Origin: Gemmatimonadetes bacterium SCN 70-22
Lineage (GTDB): Bacteria > Gemmatimonadota > Gemmatimonadetes > Gemmatimonadales > Gemmatimonadaceae
Direction: 5' to 3'
NCBI GenBank assembly: GCA_001724275.1
Contig: MEDZ01000003.1
Location: 95,230-159,229 of the forward strand
Length of the DNA: 64,000 bases
The notes beneath the pieces were generated by a model. It had not been told where the DNA came from. It did not search any database and was given only the letters and a program-made list of their open reading frames with translations. Shown in pieces: positions 44,894 to 51,949 of the stretch (its first letter is position 1; the number at the start of each line of letters is the position of its first letter). The position numbers and the translations under genes are program-made.

Positions 44894-45674
44894 GGTCGCG
44901 ATCCTCCGGGATCCCCAAGGCCTCGCGGAAGGGCGCGGCGAGTACGGCATTGCTCGCCACGCCGTCCCCGCCATCCACCTTGCCCCCCCCACGCCAGTCG
45001 GTGTACACCCCTCCGGCCTCCCGAACGATGGGGATCAGCGCCGCCGCATCCCACGGGCTCAGCCGATCGTCGACCATCAGCTCCGCCCGCCCGGTGGCCA
45101 CCTGCACGTAGCCGTAACAGTCTCCCCAGGTGCGCGAGACGGCCACGCGCCCGCCTAACGCGGCCCACTTGGCCCCCCGCTGCGGGTTGTATGGAAAGCG
45201 CGCATCGGTCACCAGGATCGTGGCGGCGTCGAGCGACGACACGGTCGACACGTGGCAACGGCTCGCATTGAACCAGCACCCTTCCCCGGCCGCAGCCGCG
45301 ACGAGTTCGCCCACCGCCGGACAGTAGATGGCCCCCGCCAGCACCTCGTCGCCTTGGGCCACGCCGATCATCGTTCCCCACAGGGGAACACCACGCACGA
45401 ACGTCTTGGTGCCGTCAATCGGGTCGATGAACCAGCGGCGCTGCCGATCGTCGCCGGAGGCGCCGAACTCCTCGCCGAGCACGGCGTCGTCGGGAAAGCG
45501 TTCGGCGATCCAACGACGCGCCACCTCCTCTGCGGTGCGGTCGGCAATGGTGACGGGGCTGCCATCGCCCTTGGTGTCGACAGCGAGCCCGCTCTTGAAA
45601 TAGCGCAGCGCGACGTCGCCGGCGACGCGGGCAACATCGGCGACCGCCTCGAGGAGAAGCGACGGTGTGGTCAT
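44886..45674 (-). CDS. hisN: Histidinol-phosphatase, inositol monophosphatase type
   Basis: A 262-residue magnesium phosphatase of the IMPase superfamily. Motifs: GEEFGASG (metal Glu), [24 protein letters not shown] (the DPIDGT metal loop) and [18 protein letters not shown] (the C-terminal WDxAA metal Asp). Its place between hisF and hisIE indicates the histidinol-phosphate phosphatase step, which HisB here cannot do because it lacks the N-terminal phosphatase domain. GTGA/ATGA-type four-base overlap with hisF. Confidence 0.92.
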
Positions 45675-46477
45675 GAGGCGCTCCTCCGGGGTGCCCGATC
45701 CTCGACGAGGCTCGACGCCGGGACCAGGCGGACGGGGAGGCCGCTGTCTTGCATGGCCCGCTTGAGCGCGGCCACGGTCGTGATCTCATCGTGCAGGATG
45801 CCCGCGACCAGCGCCGCGTCCGCCCCGCCGGGGCCGAGCGCTTCGCACACATGCGCCGCGCTCCCGGCGCCGCCCGATGCGATCACCGGAACATTGACGG
45901 CGTCGCTGATCGCACGCGTGAGGGGGATGTCGTAGCCCGCTCGCACGCCGTCGCGGTCGATGCTGGTGAGCAGGATCTCCCCTGCACCGCGCCGTTCGCA
46001 TTCCTGCGCCCACGCGACGGCCTCGAGCTCCGTCGGGACCTTCCCTCCCTTCACGAAGACCCGGTAGGTGCCGTCGATGAGGGCGGCGTCGATGCTGGCC
46101 ACGACACATTGCGCCCCGAAACGATGCGCGGCCTCGGAGAGGACCTCGGGGCGCTCCACGGCCGCCGTGTTGAGGCTGACCTTGTCGGCTCCGGCCCTTA
46201 GTGCACGCGCGACATCGTCTGCCGAACGGATGCCGCCGCCGATGGTGAGGGGGATGAACAGGCGTTCTGCGGTCCGTCTCGCGAGGTCGAGGAAGGTGGC
46301 ACGCTCCTCGGCGCTGGCGGAGATGTCGAGGTAGACGATCTCGTCCGCTCCCTCGCGTTCATACCGCTCGGCGAGCGCGACCGGATCTCCCACGTCGCGC
46401 AGCGACTCGAAGTTCACGCCCTTCACCACGCGCCCCCCCTTCACGTCGAGGCAGACGATCAAGCGCCGCGTGAGCAT
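45671..46477 (-). CDS. hisF: Imidazole glycerol phosphate synthase subunit HisF
   Basis: A 268-residue (beta-alpha)8 cyclase that with HisH makes IGP and AICAR from PRFAR. Motifs: the start [20 protein letters not shown] with catalytic Asp11, [13 protein letters not shown] and the second half-barrel [15 protein letters not shown] with Asp near 130. Its ATG overlaps the hisB stop by one base (TAATG). Confidence 0.96.
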
Positions 46478-47019
46478 TACTGGCCCCCCCGCTTGAGGGA
46501 GACGCTGCCCTTGGTGGAGAAGACCGCACCGCTGTCGACCAGGGCGTCACGCAGGGCCAGGCCGAGCGCCTTGAATGCGGCTTCGACGATGTGGTGCCGA
46601 TCGGTGCCGCGCAGCACCCGCAGGTGCAACGTGGTGCCGGCGTGCTCGGCGAACGAGCGCATGAAGTGATCGTAGAGCGAGCTGGGGAGCGGCCCCTCGT
46701 AGTAGAAGCGCCCGCCGATGTCGAGGGCGCACTCCACCACCGCCTCGTCCATGGGGACGACGCGGTGCCCGTAGCGCGCCGCGGTCGCGGGGATCTCACC
46801 CTTGAACGCCGCCCCGAGCGCGATGGCCACGTCCTCGATGAGGTGGTGGCGCAGGTCGCCGCGCGCGTGCAGCTCCAGTGCCACCCCGGCGTACCGGGCC
46901 CACGTGAGGAGCATGTGGTCGAGGAAGGGGAGCGAGGTGTCGACGGCGATGTCACCGCCGCCACGCGTGACGGTCACGCGAATGGACGTCTCGCGGGTTT
47001 CGCGCTCGATGGTACTCAT
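46477..47019 (-). CDS. hisB: Imidazoleglycerol-phosphate dehydratase
   Basis: A 180-residue monofunctional HisB. Conserved histidine and acid motifs that bind two manganese ions: LPFLDHMLLTWARYAG, DLRHHLIEDVAIALGAAF, DHFMRSFAEHAG and TDRHHIVEAAFKALGLAL. It lacks the histidinol-phosphatase domain found in E. coli HisB; that activity is supplied by HisN. The ATG at 47019 overlaps the hisA stop (ATGA). Confidence 0.96.
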   Translation of the reverse strand: MSTIERETRETSIRVTVTRGGGDIAVDTSLPFLDHMLLTWARYAGVALELHARGDLRHHLIEDVAIALGAAFKGEIPATAARYGHRVVPMDEAVVECALDIGGRFYYEGPLPSSLYDHFMRSFAEHAGTTLHLRVLRGTDRHHIVEAAFKALGLALRDALVDSGAVFSTKGSVSLKRGGQ

Positions 47020-47729
47020 GCGGCAAACTCCTCGACGATGGCACGCGGGTCGATCGCGCCGGTATACAGGGCCATTCCGATGACCGCGCCAGCGACTCCC
47101 CGATCCTGCAAGGCGTAGAGGTCGCCGGTGCTCGACACGCCGCCAGCCGCGAAGACGGGGAAGGCGGCGGCTTCCACCACGTCCTCCATCAGCGGGAGGT
47201 CGGTGCCTTGCAGCTGTCCTTCCCGGTGCACCGCCGTCACCAGGAGGGCGGCGAGGGGGAGGCCACTCATCTCCTCGACCATGTCGAGGACGTTGCGCGG
47301 GAGGGTGCGCTGCCAGCCGCGCGTGGTCACGCGTCGATCCCGCACGTCGGCCGCGACGATGACCTGGCCCGGATTGTCGTGTGCCAGCTCGGCGAGCCAG
47401 TCCAGGTCCTCGAGCGCCCGCGTCCCGACGATGGCGCAGCGCGCGCCGTCGTCGAGGATGTCGCGAACGGCATCGGTCGTCCGGAGCCCGCCCCCCACCT
47501 GCACCTCCGCCAGCTGCTCGCGGAGCATCTCGCGTATGAGCGGAAGGTTGCTCCCCTTCTCGAGGGCTGCATCGAGGTCGACGACGTGCAGGCGCGCGAA
47601 GCCGAGGCGGGCCCACTCACGCGCCACGGCCAACGGGTCATCGAGCCGGACGCGTTCCTCGGCGTACTCCCCTCCCACCAGCTGCACGCACGCCCCCTCA
47701 CGCAGGTCTACCGCGGGGATAGCGATCAT
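47016..47729 (-). CDS. hisA: ProFAR isomerase
   Basis: A 237-residue (beta-alpha)8 isomerase, step 4 of the pathway. Motifs: start MIAIPAVDLREGACVQLVGG with the catalytic Asp, HVVDLDAALE, VQVGGGLRTTDAV, and the late FAAGGVSSTGDL phosphate-binding loop. The central VIVAADVRDRRVTTRGW provides the second Asp. Overlaps hisH and hisB by four bases each. Confidence 0.95.
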   Translation of the reverse strand: MIAIPAVDLREGACVQLVGGEYAEERVRLDDPLAVAREWARLGFARLHVVDLDAALEKGSNLPLIREMLREQLAEVQVGGGLRTTDAVRDILDDGARCAIVGTRALEDLDWLAELAHDNPGQVIVAADVRDRRVTTRGWQRTLPRNVLDMVEEMSGLPLAALLVTAVHREGQLQGTDLPLMEDVVEAAAFPVFAAGGVSSTGDLYALQDRGVAGAVIGMALYTGAIDPRAIVEEFAA

Positions 47730-48331
47730 CGAAGCGCCTCCGCCAGGAACGCGTGAATGAAGGCCACGCCGGCGCCCGACGACTTCTCCGGGTGAAACTG
47801 GACACCGACGGTGCGACCGCGCCGCACGGACGCGGGGAAGCGATCGCCTTCGTGCGTACTCCATGCCGTGACGAGCGTGGGGTCGTCGGGACGGCAGACG
47901 TACGAGTTGGCGTAGTACACGTGCCGCAGCCCCGACGTGGTGAACAAGGGATCGGCGGCGTCGTCGACCGAGTTCCAACCGATCTGCGGGAGCCGATGGG
48001 CGGCAAGGCGCGACACGCGCCCGGGGATGATCCCGAGCCCCTCCCCCGGCCCCTCTTCACTTCCGTCGAACAGGAGCTGCATGCCGAGACAGATGCCGAG
48101 GCAGGGAAGGCCGTCCTCGAGCGCGCGTCGCATCGCGTCGCGTCCAGGTTGCAGGCGCTCCGCAGCGGGCGTGAATGCGCCAACGCCCGGGAGCAGGAGG
48201 ACGTCGGTCCTTGCGGCGCGCACGGGGTCGGGCTCGATCACCGGCGTAGTGCCGGCGCTGGCCACCGCCTTGGCCAGCGAGTGGAGGTTGCCAGCGCCGT
48301 AGTCGAAGATCGTGATCCGCGGTTCACGCAT
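47726..48331 (-). CDS. hisH: Imidazole glycerol phosphate synthase glutaminase subunit HisH
   Basis: A 201-residue class I glutamine amidotransferase. The nucleophile cysteine is in CLGICLGMQLLFDGS, the catalytic His and Glu in GVQFHPEKSSGAG, and the N-terminal IFDYGAGNLHSLAKA is typical. It channels ammonia to HisF. The ATG at 48331 is chosen by alignment and overlaps the hisC stop by eight bases. Confidence 0.96.
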   Translation of the reverse strand: MREPRITIFDYGAGNLHSLAKAVASAGTTPVIEPDPVRAARTDVLLLPGVGAFTPAAERLQPGRDAMRRALEDGLPCLGICLGMQLLFDGSEEGPGEGLGIIPGRVSRLAAHRLPQIGWNSVDDAADPLFTTSGLRHVYYANSYVCRPDDPTLVTAWSTHEGDRFPASVRRGRTVGVQFHPEKSSGAGVAFIHAFLAEALR

Positions 48332-49415
48332 CGCCCGCTCCCCTTGCCGTGACGACGCGTGCTTCGTCGGGAACGATCTCGGCCAGCGCCGCCAGCACGC
48401 GTTCCATCGACGGCCAGTCGGCGATGCTGATGCGCAGGGCGTCGCCAATGCCGGGAAGTCCGGTGAAGTGGCGCACCAGGATGCCGCGTTCACGCAGGCC
48501 GAGCATGGCCGCGCGCGCGTCGCGCACGGGAAGCAGGACGAAGTTTGCCGCGCTGGGAAGCGGCCGGAAGCCCGTCGCCTGCAACGCCGCGGTGAAGCGA
48601 TCACGCGATGCGATGATGCGGGCGACGCTTGCGCGCGTCCAGCCCAGGTCCTCGGTCACGGCGGCCAGCGCCGCGAGCTCACCCAACGCGGTGACGGTGA
48701 ACGGACCGCGTGCCTTCTCCAGCTCGGCGATGAGGGGGCGGGCGCCCACCGCGTAGCCGACACGCATCCCCGCCAGCCCGAACGCCTTGGAGAAGGTCCG
48801 GAAGACGAGCGATCGGCCGTGCGCCGGCGCCTCGCGCGCGAGGTTGGATCCCGCGAATTCGGCGTACGCCTCGTCCACGAAGACGACCCCCGCGCACCGT
48901 TCGAGGAGGTGCTGCAGCGTGGCGTGCGCCACCGGCAGGCCCGTGGGGTTGTTGGGCGTGCAGAGGTACGTGATGGGTGCCTGCGCGGCAACGAGCCGCT
49001 CTCCGTCGGCGTCGAGCGTCGCGGCAACGGGGACGGGGACCGGGACGAGCGAGTTGGAGACGGCGAAGACGCGCGCCATGACGAAGGTGGGGTCCATGTA
49101 CGCCACGCGCGCCCCGGGCTCGCCGAGCGCGCGGAAGGCGCAGCTCATGACCTCGTCGGACCCGCATCCCACCATCACCTCGTCCGGCGCGACGCCGATG
49201 TAGGCGGCAATCGCCTCTCGCAGCAGGTGCGAGTAGGTGGATGGGTAACGCGCCAGCCGGTTGTCGACGCCGCCCGCGATGGCTCGCAATGCGGCTGGCG
49301 GGACGCCGAAGGGCGAGGTGTTGTCGGCCAGCTCGAGCTCGCAGGGCGTGGGATCCACGTCGTAGGCGCGCAGCTCGCGATATGCCGGGCGCGGCGACCA
49401 GGGGCGTGCGCTCAT
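48324..49415 (-). CDS. hisC: Histidinol-phosphate aminotransferase
   Basis: A 363-residue PLP enzyme. Motifs: LADNTSPFGVPPAAL at the N-terminus, GCGSDEVM, TPNNPTGLPV, VFVDEAYAEFAGS (Asp for the cofactor ring) and FSKAFGLAGMRVGYAVG (Schiff-base Lys). It transaminates imidazole-acetol phosphate. ATGA overlap with hisD. Confidence 0.95.
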   Translation of the reverse strand: MSARPWSPRPAYRELRAYDVDPTPCELELADNTSPFGVPPAALRAIAGGVDNRLARYPSTYSHLLREAIAAYIGVAPDEVMVGCGSDEVMSCAFRALGEPGARVAYMDPTFVMARVFAVSNSLVPVPVPVAATLDADGERLVAAQAPITYLCTPNNPTGLPVAHATLQHLLERCAGVVFVDEAYAEFAGSNLAREAPAHGRSLVFRTFSKAFGLAGMRVGYAVGARPLIAELEKARGPFTVTALGELAALAAVTEDLGWTRASVARIIASRDRFTAALQATGFRPLPSAANFVLLPVRDARAAMLGLRERGILVRHFTGLPGIGDALRISIADWPSMERVLAALAEIVPDEARVVTARGAGDA

Positions 49416-50731
49416 GTCGGTTCACCCTTCGCGATCCACCCGCGCGCCGCCCGTGCGTGACCATCGAGCCCCTCGGCGTCGGCGAAGACCCCGACGTCGC
49501 GGGCCAGCCGCGCAGAGGCGTCCGGCGTGACACGCTGATACGTCGTGAAGCGAACGAAATCCAGGGTCGAGAGCCCCGAGTAGGAGCGGGCCAGTCCGTT
49601 GGTGGGGAGCGTGTGATTGGCGCCGGTCATGTAGTCGCCAAACGAGACCGACGCCGACTCGCCGACGAAGATGGTCCCGGCGTTCCGCAGCTGGCCGAGG
49701 AGCCGGTCCGCGTCGGCCGGGTCGACCGCCAGCAGGAGATGCTCAGGGGCGTACGCATTGGCGAAGATCACCGCGTCGTCGAGCGATCCCACCGAGACGA
49801 CGCCACCGTTCGCTTCCAGTGCCTGCCGGATGATGTTTGCCCGTGCATAGCCGCCCACCATGGTGTCCAGCGCGGTCTCGAGCTGGGCAGCGATGTCGTC
49901 GCCGACGGCCACGGCCACCACGCACGCCTGGGGGTCGTGCTCGGCCTGGGCGAGCATCTCGCGAGCCACCTGCCCGGTGTCGGCGTTCCCGTCGAGAATC
50001 ACCAGAAGCTCGCTGGGGCCGGCCGGAGAATCGATGGCGCACGACCGGCCGACCTGCACCTTGGCCTCGGCGACCCAGGCGTTGCCCGGACCCACGATGC
50101 GATCGACACGGGGTACGCTTTGCGTGCCATAGGCCATGGCTCCGACCGCCCCAGCGCCGCCGATCGCGAACACCTTGTCGACGCCGGCGATGGCGCAGGC
50201 GGCCAGGACCACCATGGACGGGATTCCGTTGCTCCCCGGCGGCGAGCAGACGATGACGTCTCGGACCCCCGCCACCTTGGCCGGGATCGCGCCCATGAGG
50301 ACGGAGCTCGGATACGCGGCGCGGCCGCCGGGGGCGTACACCCCCACCCGGCCCAACGGGTCGGGGCGGCGCCCGATGACGATGCCGGCCTCCGTCTCGA
50401 CCTCCGTCAGGACCGGCAGGAAGGCCCTGTGGGCCGCTTCGATGTTGCGGGCGGCGCGCTCCATTGCGGTGCGCACCGCGGGGTCGATCGCCTCCAGCGC
50501 CTTCGTCCACTCGTTCTTCGGGACTTCGAGGCGCTTGAGCGTGACCCCGTCATACTCCCGGGCGAGCGACCGGAGGACGCTGTCTCCCTCGCGACGGACG
50601 GCGTCGAGGATGGCGGCCACCGTGTCGCGCAACACGTCGTCCTCGGCCGTCGACCGGTCGAGGAGGGCGCGCCGAGCATCGGGATCCAAGGACGACACCG
50701 CGCCCTGAAAACGCAGCTTGAGCGTGCTCAC
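49412..50731 (-). CDS. hisD: Histidinol dehydrogenase
   Basis: A 439-residue zinc- and NAD-dependent enzyme for the last two oxidations. Motifs: GVYAPGGRAAYPSSVLMGAI, VDRIVGPGNAWVAEAK, DSPAGPSELLVI, QAEHDPQA and NAYAPEHLLLAV, with the zinc-binding and catalytic Glu/His residues in the last two. Its GTG start overlaps the hisG stop (GTGA). Confidence 0.96.
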   Translation of the reverse strand: MSTLKLRFQGAVSSLDPDARRALLDRSTAEDDVLRDTVAAILDAVRREGDSVLRSLAREYDGVTLKRLEVPKNEWTKALEAIDPAVRTAMERAARNIEAAHRAFLPVLTEVETEAGIVIGRRPDPLGRVGVYAPGGRAAYPSSVLMGAIPAKVAGVRDVIVCSPPGSNGIPSMVVLAACAIAGVDKVFAIGGAGAVGAMAYGTQSVPRVDRIVGPGNAWVAEAKVQVGRSCAIDSPAGPSELLVILDGNADTGQVAREMLAQAEHDPQACVVAVAVGDDIAAQLETALDTMVGGYARANIIRQALEANGGVVSVGSLDDAVIFANAYAPEHLLLAVDPADADRLLGQLRNAGTIFVGESASVSFGDYMTGANHTLPTNGLARSYSGLSTLDFVRFTTYQRVTPDASARLARDVGVFADAEGLDGHARAARGWIAKGEPT

Positions 50732-51594
50732 GGCATCAGCCTCTCGATTCGAGTGACGAGGATTCCTTCCGCTCCGAGCGACTTGAGCGAGGCGATCGTG
50801 CGGTAGATGGATGTGGCGGGGACGACGGCGTGGACCGCGACGTGGCTTCCGCCGTTCAAGATGTCGATCACCGTTGGGCCGTTGAGCCCCGGGATGATCT
50901 CCTTCACCCGCGCAAGCGACTGGCGCGGCACGTTCGCCATCAGGTATCGCTGCCCCCGGGCTCGCAGCACCGACTCGAGCGCCGATGTGAGCTCCCGGAG
51001 TGCCTGCCCTTTCCCTGCGTCGCGCTCAGCCGCCTCCGGGGCCGTGACGAGACGGGCCGTGGAGGTCATGACGGTCTGGACCTCACGCAGTCCGTTCATC
51101 TTGAGCGTCGAGCCGGTGGAAGTGAGGTCGACGACAACGTCGGCGATGCCGAGGTGTGGCGCAATCTCGGCCGCACCGCTGACGGGAACCACTTCCACGT
51201 CAATGGAGTGCGATTCGAAAAAGGCCCGCGTGATGCGCGGAAAGACCGTCGCGACGCGGGTGCCACGCGTCAGGTCGGAGATGAGCTTGACGCGGGACTC
51301 CTCCCGAACCGCCACCACCAGCCTGCATTTCCCGAAGCCGAGGTCGAGGCGCGAGTCGAGGGGGCGCTCGGATTCGCTGACGAGGTCCCACCCGGTGACG
51401 CCGGCATCGGCGGCGCCGTCGGCCACGAACTCGGGGATGTCCTGGGCCCGGACGAAGATGGCCTCGAACTCGCCGCCGAGCGATGCGGTCAGGGCCCGAT
51501 CGCCCTGGGCGCGCACTTCGAGTCCTGCATCGTTGAAGAGCTCTCGCGCTTCGTCGGAGAGCCGCCCCTTGTTGGGCAGTGCGATCTTCAGCAT
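50728..51594 (-). CDS. hisG: ATP phosphoribosyltransferase, long form
   Basis: A 288-residue HisG, the committed and feedback-controlled first step. Catalytic region: KIALPNKGRLSDEA, VTGWDLVSES, VEVVPVSGAAEIAPHLGIADVVVDLTSTGSTLKMNGL with the phosphoribosyl loop. The C-terminal ACT-like regulatory domain (about 215-288, ending ILVTRIERLMP) marks the long form, which is inhibited by histidine and does not need HisZ. No Shine-Dalgarno sequence precedes its ATG; the start is 16 bases after the attenuator's U-run. Confidence 0.96.
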   Translation of the reverse strand: MLKIALPNKGRLSDEARELFNDAGLEVRAQGDRALTASLGGEFEAIFVRAQDIPEFVADGAADAGVTGWDLVSESERPLDSRLDLGFGKCRLVVAVREESRVKLISDLTRGTRVATVFPRITRAFFESHSIDVEVVPVSGAAEIAPHLGIADVVVDLTSTGSTLKMNGLREVQTVMTSTARLVTAPEAAERDAGKGQALRELTSALESVLRARGQRYLMANVPRQSLARVKEIIPGLNGPTVIDILNGGSHVAVHAVVPATSIYRTIASLKSLGAEGILVTRIERLMP

Positions 51595-51610
51595 GGAACG
51601 AAAGAAGGGC

Positions 51611-51644
51611 GAAAAAGAAAAAGGCCCGTCCGGTGGACGGGCCT
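51611..51644 (-). terminator. his attenuator terminator
   Basis: On the minus strand a 10-bp stem AGGCCCGTCC / GGACGGGCCT with a 3-base loop is followed by TTTTTCTTTTTC, a proper intrinsic terminator placed between the leader peptide and hisG. The left arm can instead pair with ACGGGCCT in the leader coding region (see finding). Confidence 0.9.
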
Positions 51645-51683
51645 CGGCACTCAGGCGTACGCTGCTGGCGCTATGGCTGCCAA

Positions 51684-51767
51684 CTACCGCACGCGAAAGA
51701 CGCCCAGGCCCGTGAGGGCATGGCCGTGGTGCGCGTGATGGTGGTGGCCTGACAGGAGGTGGAGCAT
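51684..51767 (-). CDS. hisL: his operon leader peptide
   Basis: A 27-residue peptide, MLHLLSG, then HHHHAHHGH (seven His in nine residues), then ALTGLGVFRVR and a TAG stop, 40 bases before the attenuator hairpin. This is the classic arrangement of histidine-operon attenuation: scarce charged His-tRNA stalls the ribosome on the His run and prevents the terminator. It has no Shine-Dalgarno sequence; the predicted transcription start coincides with the ATG, suggesting leaderless translation. Confidence 0.9.
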   Translation of the reverse strand: MLHLLSGHHHHAHHGHALTGLGVFRVR

Positions 51768-51773
51768 GGGCGG

Positions 51774-51802
51774 AACGTAGCCGCGGCAGCGCGGGGCGTC
51801 AA
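51774..51802 (-). promoter_or_regulatory. his operon promoter
   Basis: Minus-strand TTGACG (51802-51797), a 17-base spacer and TACGTT (51779-51774). Counting seven bases from the -10 box puts +1 at 51767, the A of the hisL ATG. Confidence 0.65.
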
Positions 51803-51949
51803 CTCGAGGCCCTCTACACCAGGACTTCTGGGGACCATAGCTTGCGGCCAGCCACGGCGCGGCGATCGACGCGGGCGCCGTGGACCCGCTCGAGGTACGC
51901 CCGCGGCCTTCGGCCGTCGTGGAATCCACGTAGCCAGCGACTTTCGATC

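Follow-up and report, generated by a model that had tools for sequence, protein, structure and literature searches.

Is the histidine operon of Gemmatimonadetes bacterium SCN 70-22 regulated by a ribosome that reads histidine codons ahead of hisG? The 64,000-nucleotide stretch of DNA analyzed here (the window) raises this question, and a preliminary description of its sequence had read the region upstream of hisG as a complete attenuator. We predict that it is very probably a ribosome-mediated his attenuator, which would sense charged His-tRNA and whose leader frame probably starts with the first bases of the transcript. The anatomy is classical except for this predicted translation start. HisG-based relatives place the genome in the Gemmatimonadota. 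All coordinates given below are on the minus strand of the window.

Leader frame, terminator and operon

The leader frame (51767-51684) has 27 codons, eight of which encode histidine, and ends in a TAG stop; the product is MLHLLSGHHHHAHHGHALTGLGVFRVR. The regulatory histidine codons are codons 8-11, 13, 14 and 16 (51720..51746), which give the run HHHHAHHGH, and codon 3 is one further histidine codon. Across all six frames of the 64 kb window, this frame is the sole site with at least six histidines per 10 stop-free codons. An intrinsic terminator hairpin with 11 pairs and a 3-nt loop (51645-51621) lies 38 nt past the leader stop and is followed by a T-rich tail, TTTCTTTTTC (51611..51620). One such terminator was found here, compared to 0.2 expected in shuffled sequences. 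The next gene, hisG (50728..51594), encodes ATP phosphoribosyltransferase with HisG and HisG_C domains and is the first gene of the operon. The order that had been described, a 27-codon frame with eight histidines, then a terminator, then hisG (starting at 51594), was located in full.

The remainder of the operon (45671..50731) contains hisD, hisC, hisH, hisB, and hisA or hisF, based on domains for histidinol dehydrogenase (hisD), an aminotransferase (taken as hisC), GATase, IGPD, and a His_biosynth protein. A gene for an inositol-phosphatase family protein follows the His_biosynth gene, and a divergent plastocyanin-like gene is found upstream of the leader. Shine-Dalgarno-like tetramers are rare at the hisG starts of the window and its relatives (11 of 96), although hisG would have to be initiated within a long transcript.

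To compare leaders, hisG loci of two kinds were used, those of a collection of named genomes and those of genomes related to the window's; once identical sequences had been removed, 98 upstream regions were left. These come from Gemmatimonadota, from the families Myxococcaceae and Archangiaceae, with Myxococcus xanthus included, and from Eisenbacteria. A histidine-rich frame, defined as a stop-free stretch behind a start codon with at least four histidine codons in 10, is present ahead of hisG in 97 of the 98. As in known attenuators, then, a short frame is rich in codons for the amino acid that the operon makes (8 of 27 codons in the window), and an intrinsic terminator stands between it and the first structural gene. 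The terminator occurs in 96 of the 98 regions, almost always as GGCCCGTCC-loop-GGACGGGCC. Relatives that keep hisG and lack the frame had been named as the finding that would count against an attenuator; a single one was found (L104, genome G032, with a similar HisG), which favors the attenuator.

Promoter and predicted translation from the RNA 5′ end

The preliminary description overlooked that the leader has no ribosome-binding site and begins where transcription is expected to start. A -35 element, TTGACG (51797..51802), is separated by a 17-nt spacer from a putative -10 element, TACGTT (51774..51779), which ends 6 nt before the ATG. From this arrangement, we predict that transcription starts at or next to the A of the leader ATG. 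The arrangement recurs among relatives: promoter scores of at least 8 are found in 69% of them, compared to 2% of shuffled sequences. Among the promoters that pass a strict rule, the -35 element is TTGAC plus any base in 65 of 68, the spacer is 17 or 18 nt in 66 of 68, and in 66 of 68 the distance from the end of the -10 element to the start codon is 5-11 nt. Shine-Dalgarno-like tetramers are absent from the leader of the window. The frame is probably leaderless or nearly so, judging by these sequences. The pattern TTGAC-N17,18-TANNNT-N5,9-ATG occurs nine times in the whole genome and not once for a reversed control; several of the nine matches start long frames (e.g., 258 amino acids).

The same attenuator could have a longer 5′ UTR, transcribed from a promoter further upstream, in which case it would not be leaderless. 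The strict promoter rule is unmet in 28 of 96 relatives, and a spacing of 9-10 nt in some relatives would give a 5′ UTR of a few bases. We consider the longer 5′ UTR unlikely, given that TTGAC and TAnnnT are fixed in position relative to the start codon in the other 68 of 96, that most of the remaining upstream regions show TTGAC at the matching place (including the GTG-starting ones of Myxococcaceae), and that a Shine-Dalgarno-like tetramer precedes the leader in just 6 of 96. With a leaderless frame, attenuation would be coupled to initiation at the 5′ end and the first ribosome would have to load as the transcript emerges, so the timing of leaderless initiation would be directly testable.

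Pairing and folding of the leader RNA

Pairing was evaluated on an alignment of 73 leaders from relatives. The terminator core (segments 3 and 4) is paired in 73 of 73 sequences. Segment 3, AGGCCCGT (51637..51644), is both the 5′ arm of the terminator and the 3′ arm of an antiterminator, in which its partner is segment 2, ACGGGCCT (51706..51713), as identified by alignment and folding. The core 2:3 pairs are present in 71-73 of the 73 sequences, and 88.7% of all 2:3 cells are paired, compared to 26-46% when the partner is slid along the alignment. An antiterminator that excludes the terminator is thus kept among the relatives. Its covariation is weak (the score was reached by 27 of 500 shuffles) because the stem is nearly invariant.

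The 1:2 hairpin is composed of the histidine-codon region and a short arm just 3′ of it. RNAalifold identified a hairpin, GGCCC(GAC)GGGYC, on segment 2 and directly 3′ of the last histidine codon. In the window, the inner arm of segment 1 is GCCC (51716..51719) and its partner is GGGC (51711-51708). This inner hairpin is 90.7% paired, with a covariation score above those of all 500 shuffles. In folds of single sequences, it extends outward as the central histidine codons (CAYGCGCA) pair with TGCGCRTG, 10-20 nt past segment 2; the corresponding arms in the window are CACGCG (51732..51737, histidine and alanine codons) and CGCGTG (51690..51695). Of 88 leaders, 85 show such pairing of the histidine-codon region with RNA past segment 2; after shuffling of the 3′ parts, the figure is 48%. 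The codon flanked by histidine codons covaries with its partner (GCG:CGC, GTG:CAC, GTC:GAC, and CCC:GGG), and duplexes with a leader's own partner beat swapped ones in all 5000 permutations, a figure to which kinship of the sequences contributes. By pairing and geometry, this is a protector hairpin that a ribosome stalled on the regulatory codons would open.

The attenuator proposed earlier therefore stands in its conserved histidine frame and its 2:3 and 3:4 pairings, with segments 2, 3 and 4 at the same positions, and changes in the identity of the 1:2 hairpin. Segment 1 had been given as CAGGCC pairing with GGCCTG. These motifs are present in the window, but the pairing is not conserved: 51.6% of cells are paired across the 73 relatives, no better than in shuffled or slid versions. 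The comparison of hisG upstream regions that had been called for thus yielded conserved histidine runs and a covarying inner 1:2 stem.

Relative to the leader, the CGGG core of segment 2 is in reading frame 1 in 62 cases, frame 2 in 23 and frame 0 in 9, and the peptide past the histidine run varies (GPTGRG, GPDGTV, GSRAGA) while the nucleotides are kept. Conservation across three frames indicates that it is the RNA that is conserved there, not the peptide. This bears on the idea that the frame encodes a functional histidine-rich, metal-binding peptide and that the terminator merely sets its ratio to hisG. HHHHAHHGH could bind metal, and an attenuator peptide with a function in trans, peTrpL, has been reported (PMC7298713). 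We find this very improbable, as the C terminus is not conserved, the frame past the histidine run differs where the nucleotides do not, and versions with tyrosine codons exist.

For folding, the RNA was cut off after segment 3 and a ribosome was modeled as approximately 30 masked nt. About 7.9 pairs of 2:3 form before segment 4 exists if the A site of this ribosome is on any histidine codon at nt 22-40 of the window's leader; if it is on the last one (nt 46), the mask extends over segment 2. When 94 relatives were folded, four or more 2:3 pairs formed in a fraction of 0.88 of them if a ribosome was stalled at the first histidine codon. The fraction was 0.40 without a ribosome and 0.46 if the ribosome stood at the stop codon, a position at which folding still allows 2:3. 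In the window and in 40% of relatives, 2:3 thus needs no ribosome to form in RNA that lacks segment 4, so the basal state is not cleanly predicted. The full-length free RNA of the window folds as the 1:2 hairpin plus terminator (-70.5 kcal/mol). The masked folding suggested earlier produces the expected 2:3 pairing before segment 4, but at equilibrium the terminator prevails as soon as segment 4 is included, even with the mask. Equilibrium folding is uninformative as a test of the switch, since the terminator wins in every such case, and the switch would depend on kinetics, with 2:3 forming before segment 4 is transcribed, as the textbook mechanism also has it.

From these elements, we infer the following sequence of events. 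Transcription would start at the ATG of the 27-codon frame or a few bases upstream, and translation of the frame would begin at the RNA 5′ end, with no Shine-Dalgarno site involved. If His-tRNA is plentiful, the ribosome would clear the histidine codons, and the 1:2 hairpin (the histidine-codon region and GCCC with GGGC and CGCGTG) would close behind it or refold after its release; segment 3 would then pair with segment 4 and transcription would end before hisG. Under a shortage of His-tRNA, the ribosome may stall on the first histidine codons (nt 22-42) and keep segment 1 open. Segment 2 could then pair with segment 3 before segment 4 is made, and RNA polymerase would read on into hisG.

The terminator by itself would give premature termination, and folding alone does not show ribosome-driven switching. 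Both would also fit a real terminator set by a protein, a tRNA or a metabolite, with the histidine-rich frame a bystander. The retention of a frame with cognate codons in nearly all relatives argues against such a switch, as do sister loci that swap to tyrosine codons ahead of tyrosine-related genes and keep the layout. No Rfam family matched the window at gathering score, including T-box and His_leader. Within 51560-51860, the T-box model was likewise not matched and His_leader was not among matches up to E 10. Weak matches fell far below their thresholds; the best, rnk_pseudo (21 bits against a threshold of 55), was taken as chance. We judge this explanation improbable and retain the ribosome-mediated attenuator.

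Related leaders and known systems

A covariance model built from 73 hisG leaders was searched in three phyla. It matched 107 of 249 genomes of Gemmatimonadota, 7 of 47 genomes in the phylum of an Eisenbacteria genome, and 10 of 58 genomes in the phylum to which M. xanthus belongs (one with a weak match); these counts are approximate, as strict filters were used and the weak matches include chance hits and attenuators of other kinds. The genome of the window itself yielded a second match (G000:C54:2616, E 7e-4), which contains histidine codons and has no terminator tail, and was taken as chance. In a HisG tree, Myxococcota sequences are placed among those of Gemmatimonadota. This suggests transfer between phyla, although the sequences had been sampled by their similarity to the query and support is weak for the branches that would decide the matter. 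Two sequences carry labels at odds with their hisG type: L020, labeled Comamonas sp. KCTC 72670, has a hisG of Myxococcus type, and L034, labeled Candidatus Kuenenia stuttgartiensis, one of Gemmatimonadaceae type. Wrong labels or mixed assemblies are the probable cause. One contig of genome G115 has two histidine leaders about 9.5 kb apart (L126 and L127), one ahead of hisG and the other ahead of a different frame (MTPFPRDLYAPLVPYAPDRRPVEVDLSDNTNRWGTH...) that is possibly a histidinol-phosphate aminotransferase.

Enterobacterial hisL (Rfam His_leader) shares with the window a short leader with a histidine run, mutually exclusive antiterminator and terminator, and a his operon starting with hisG. 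The window leader differs in having no Shine-Dalgarno site and a compact 1:2/2:3/3:4 layout; the enteric his attenuator has six segments. Firmicutes leaders also combine histidine codons with an antiterminator and terminator ahead of his genes, in another phylum and with runs of 3-5 histidine codons (PMC2965389, PMC9413887); neither paper mentions Gemmatimonadota or Myxococcota. The predicted 5′-end start has a counterpart in Sinorhizobium meliloti trpL, a leaderless frame with ribosome-mediated attenuation (PMC7298713), which is from an alphaproteobacterium, uses tryptophan rather than histidine codons, and is likened here by layout. Mycobacterial polycysteine attenuators (Canestrari et al. 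2020, cited in the review PMC9031893) likewise have their regulatory codons side by side in a leaderless short frame that precedes a cognate operon; they use cysteine and are described in that review as regulating translation of downstream genes.

In the open-access papers searched, histidine attenuators are described for gamma-proteobacteria and some Firmicutes, with no case from Gemmatimonadota or Myxococcota, and we found no description of the present one there, in line with the earlier remark that none was known for this phylum. An earlier mention in subscription literature is possible, above all for Myxococcus. The leaders found here would extend histidine-codon attenuation to Gemmatimonadota, Eisenbacteria, and Myxococcota, including M. 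xanthus, which can be grown and manipulated.

Weak secondary matches of the his covariance model led to leaders with tyrosine runs. Four Gemmatimonadaceae genomes (L182 = L124, L185, L186, L187) have leaderless-looking ones with the same layout ahead of genes for biopterin-dependent aromatic amino acid hydroxylases (Pfam Biopterin_H), which we infer to be phenylalanine 4-hydroxylase. In five Gemmatimonadaceae genomes (L139, L152, L155, L156, L177), tyrosine-run leaders and terminators of this same kind precede DAHP synthase genes (DAHP_snth_FXD). Examples of the leader peptides are MSIRRRYYAYSYAYAPRPTGRDRWRMRG and MTRAQSYAYYYYYTTHTTGRSWRTR, and most of the terminators are GGCCCGTGG..CCACGGGCC or near it. 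The DAHP-synthase-like locus of the window's own genome (L170) has no tyrosine-rich leader. No paper on tyrosine-codon attenuators of this type was found in the open-access literature; the nearest is Corynebacterium glutamicum aroR, with Phe-Tyr-Phe codons, which is reported to be unresponsive to tyrosine (PMC11802643).

The histidine and tyrosine leaders may form one homologous leaderless family in Gemmatimonadota, some Myxococcota, and Eisenbacteria, with exchangeable codons and a his version that moved between phyla with its operon; we give this proposal an even chance. If it is true, the leaders ahead of phenylalanine 4-hydroxylase and DAHP synthase would be tyrosine-sensing, ribosome-mediated attenuators, and such sister loci would put tyrosine among the amino acids sensed by attenuation. 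A further leader (L181), ahead of a DAHP-synthase-like gene, has a TTGAC..TATACT promoter and a frame, MQHLVTLNLWWWPWRNSAVGRASV, with four tryptophan codons, and is a possible tryptophan attenuator.
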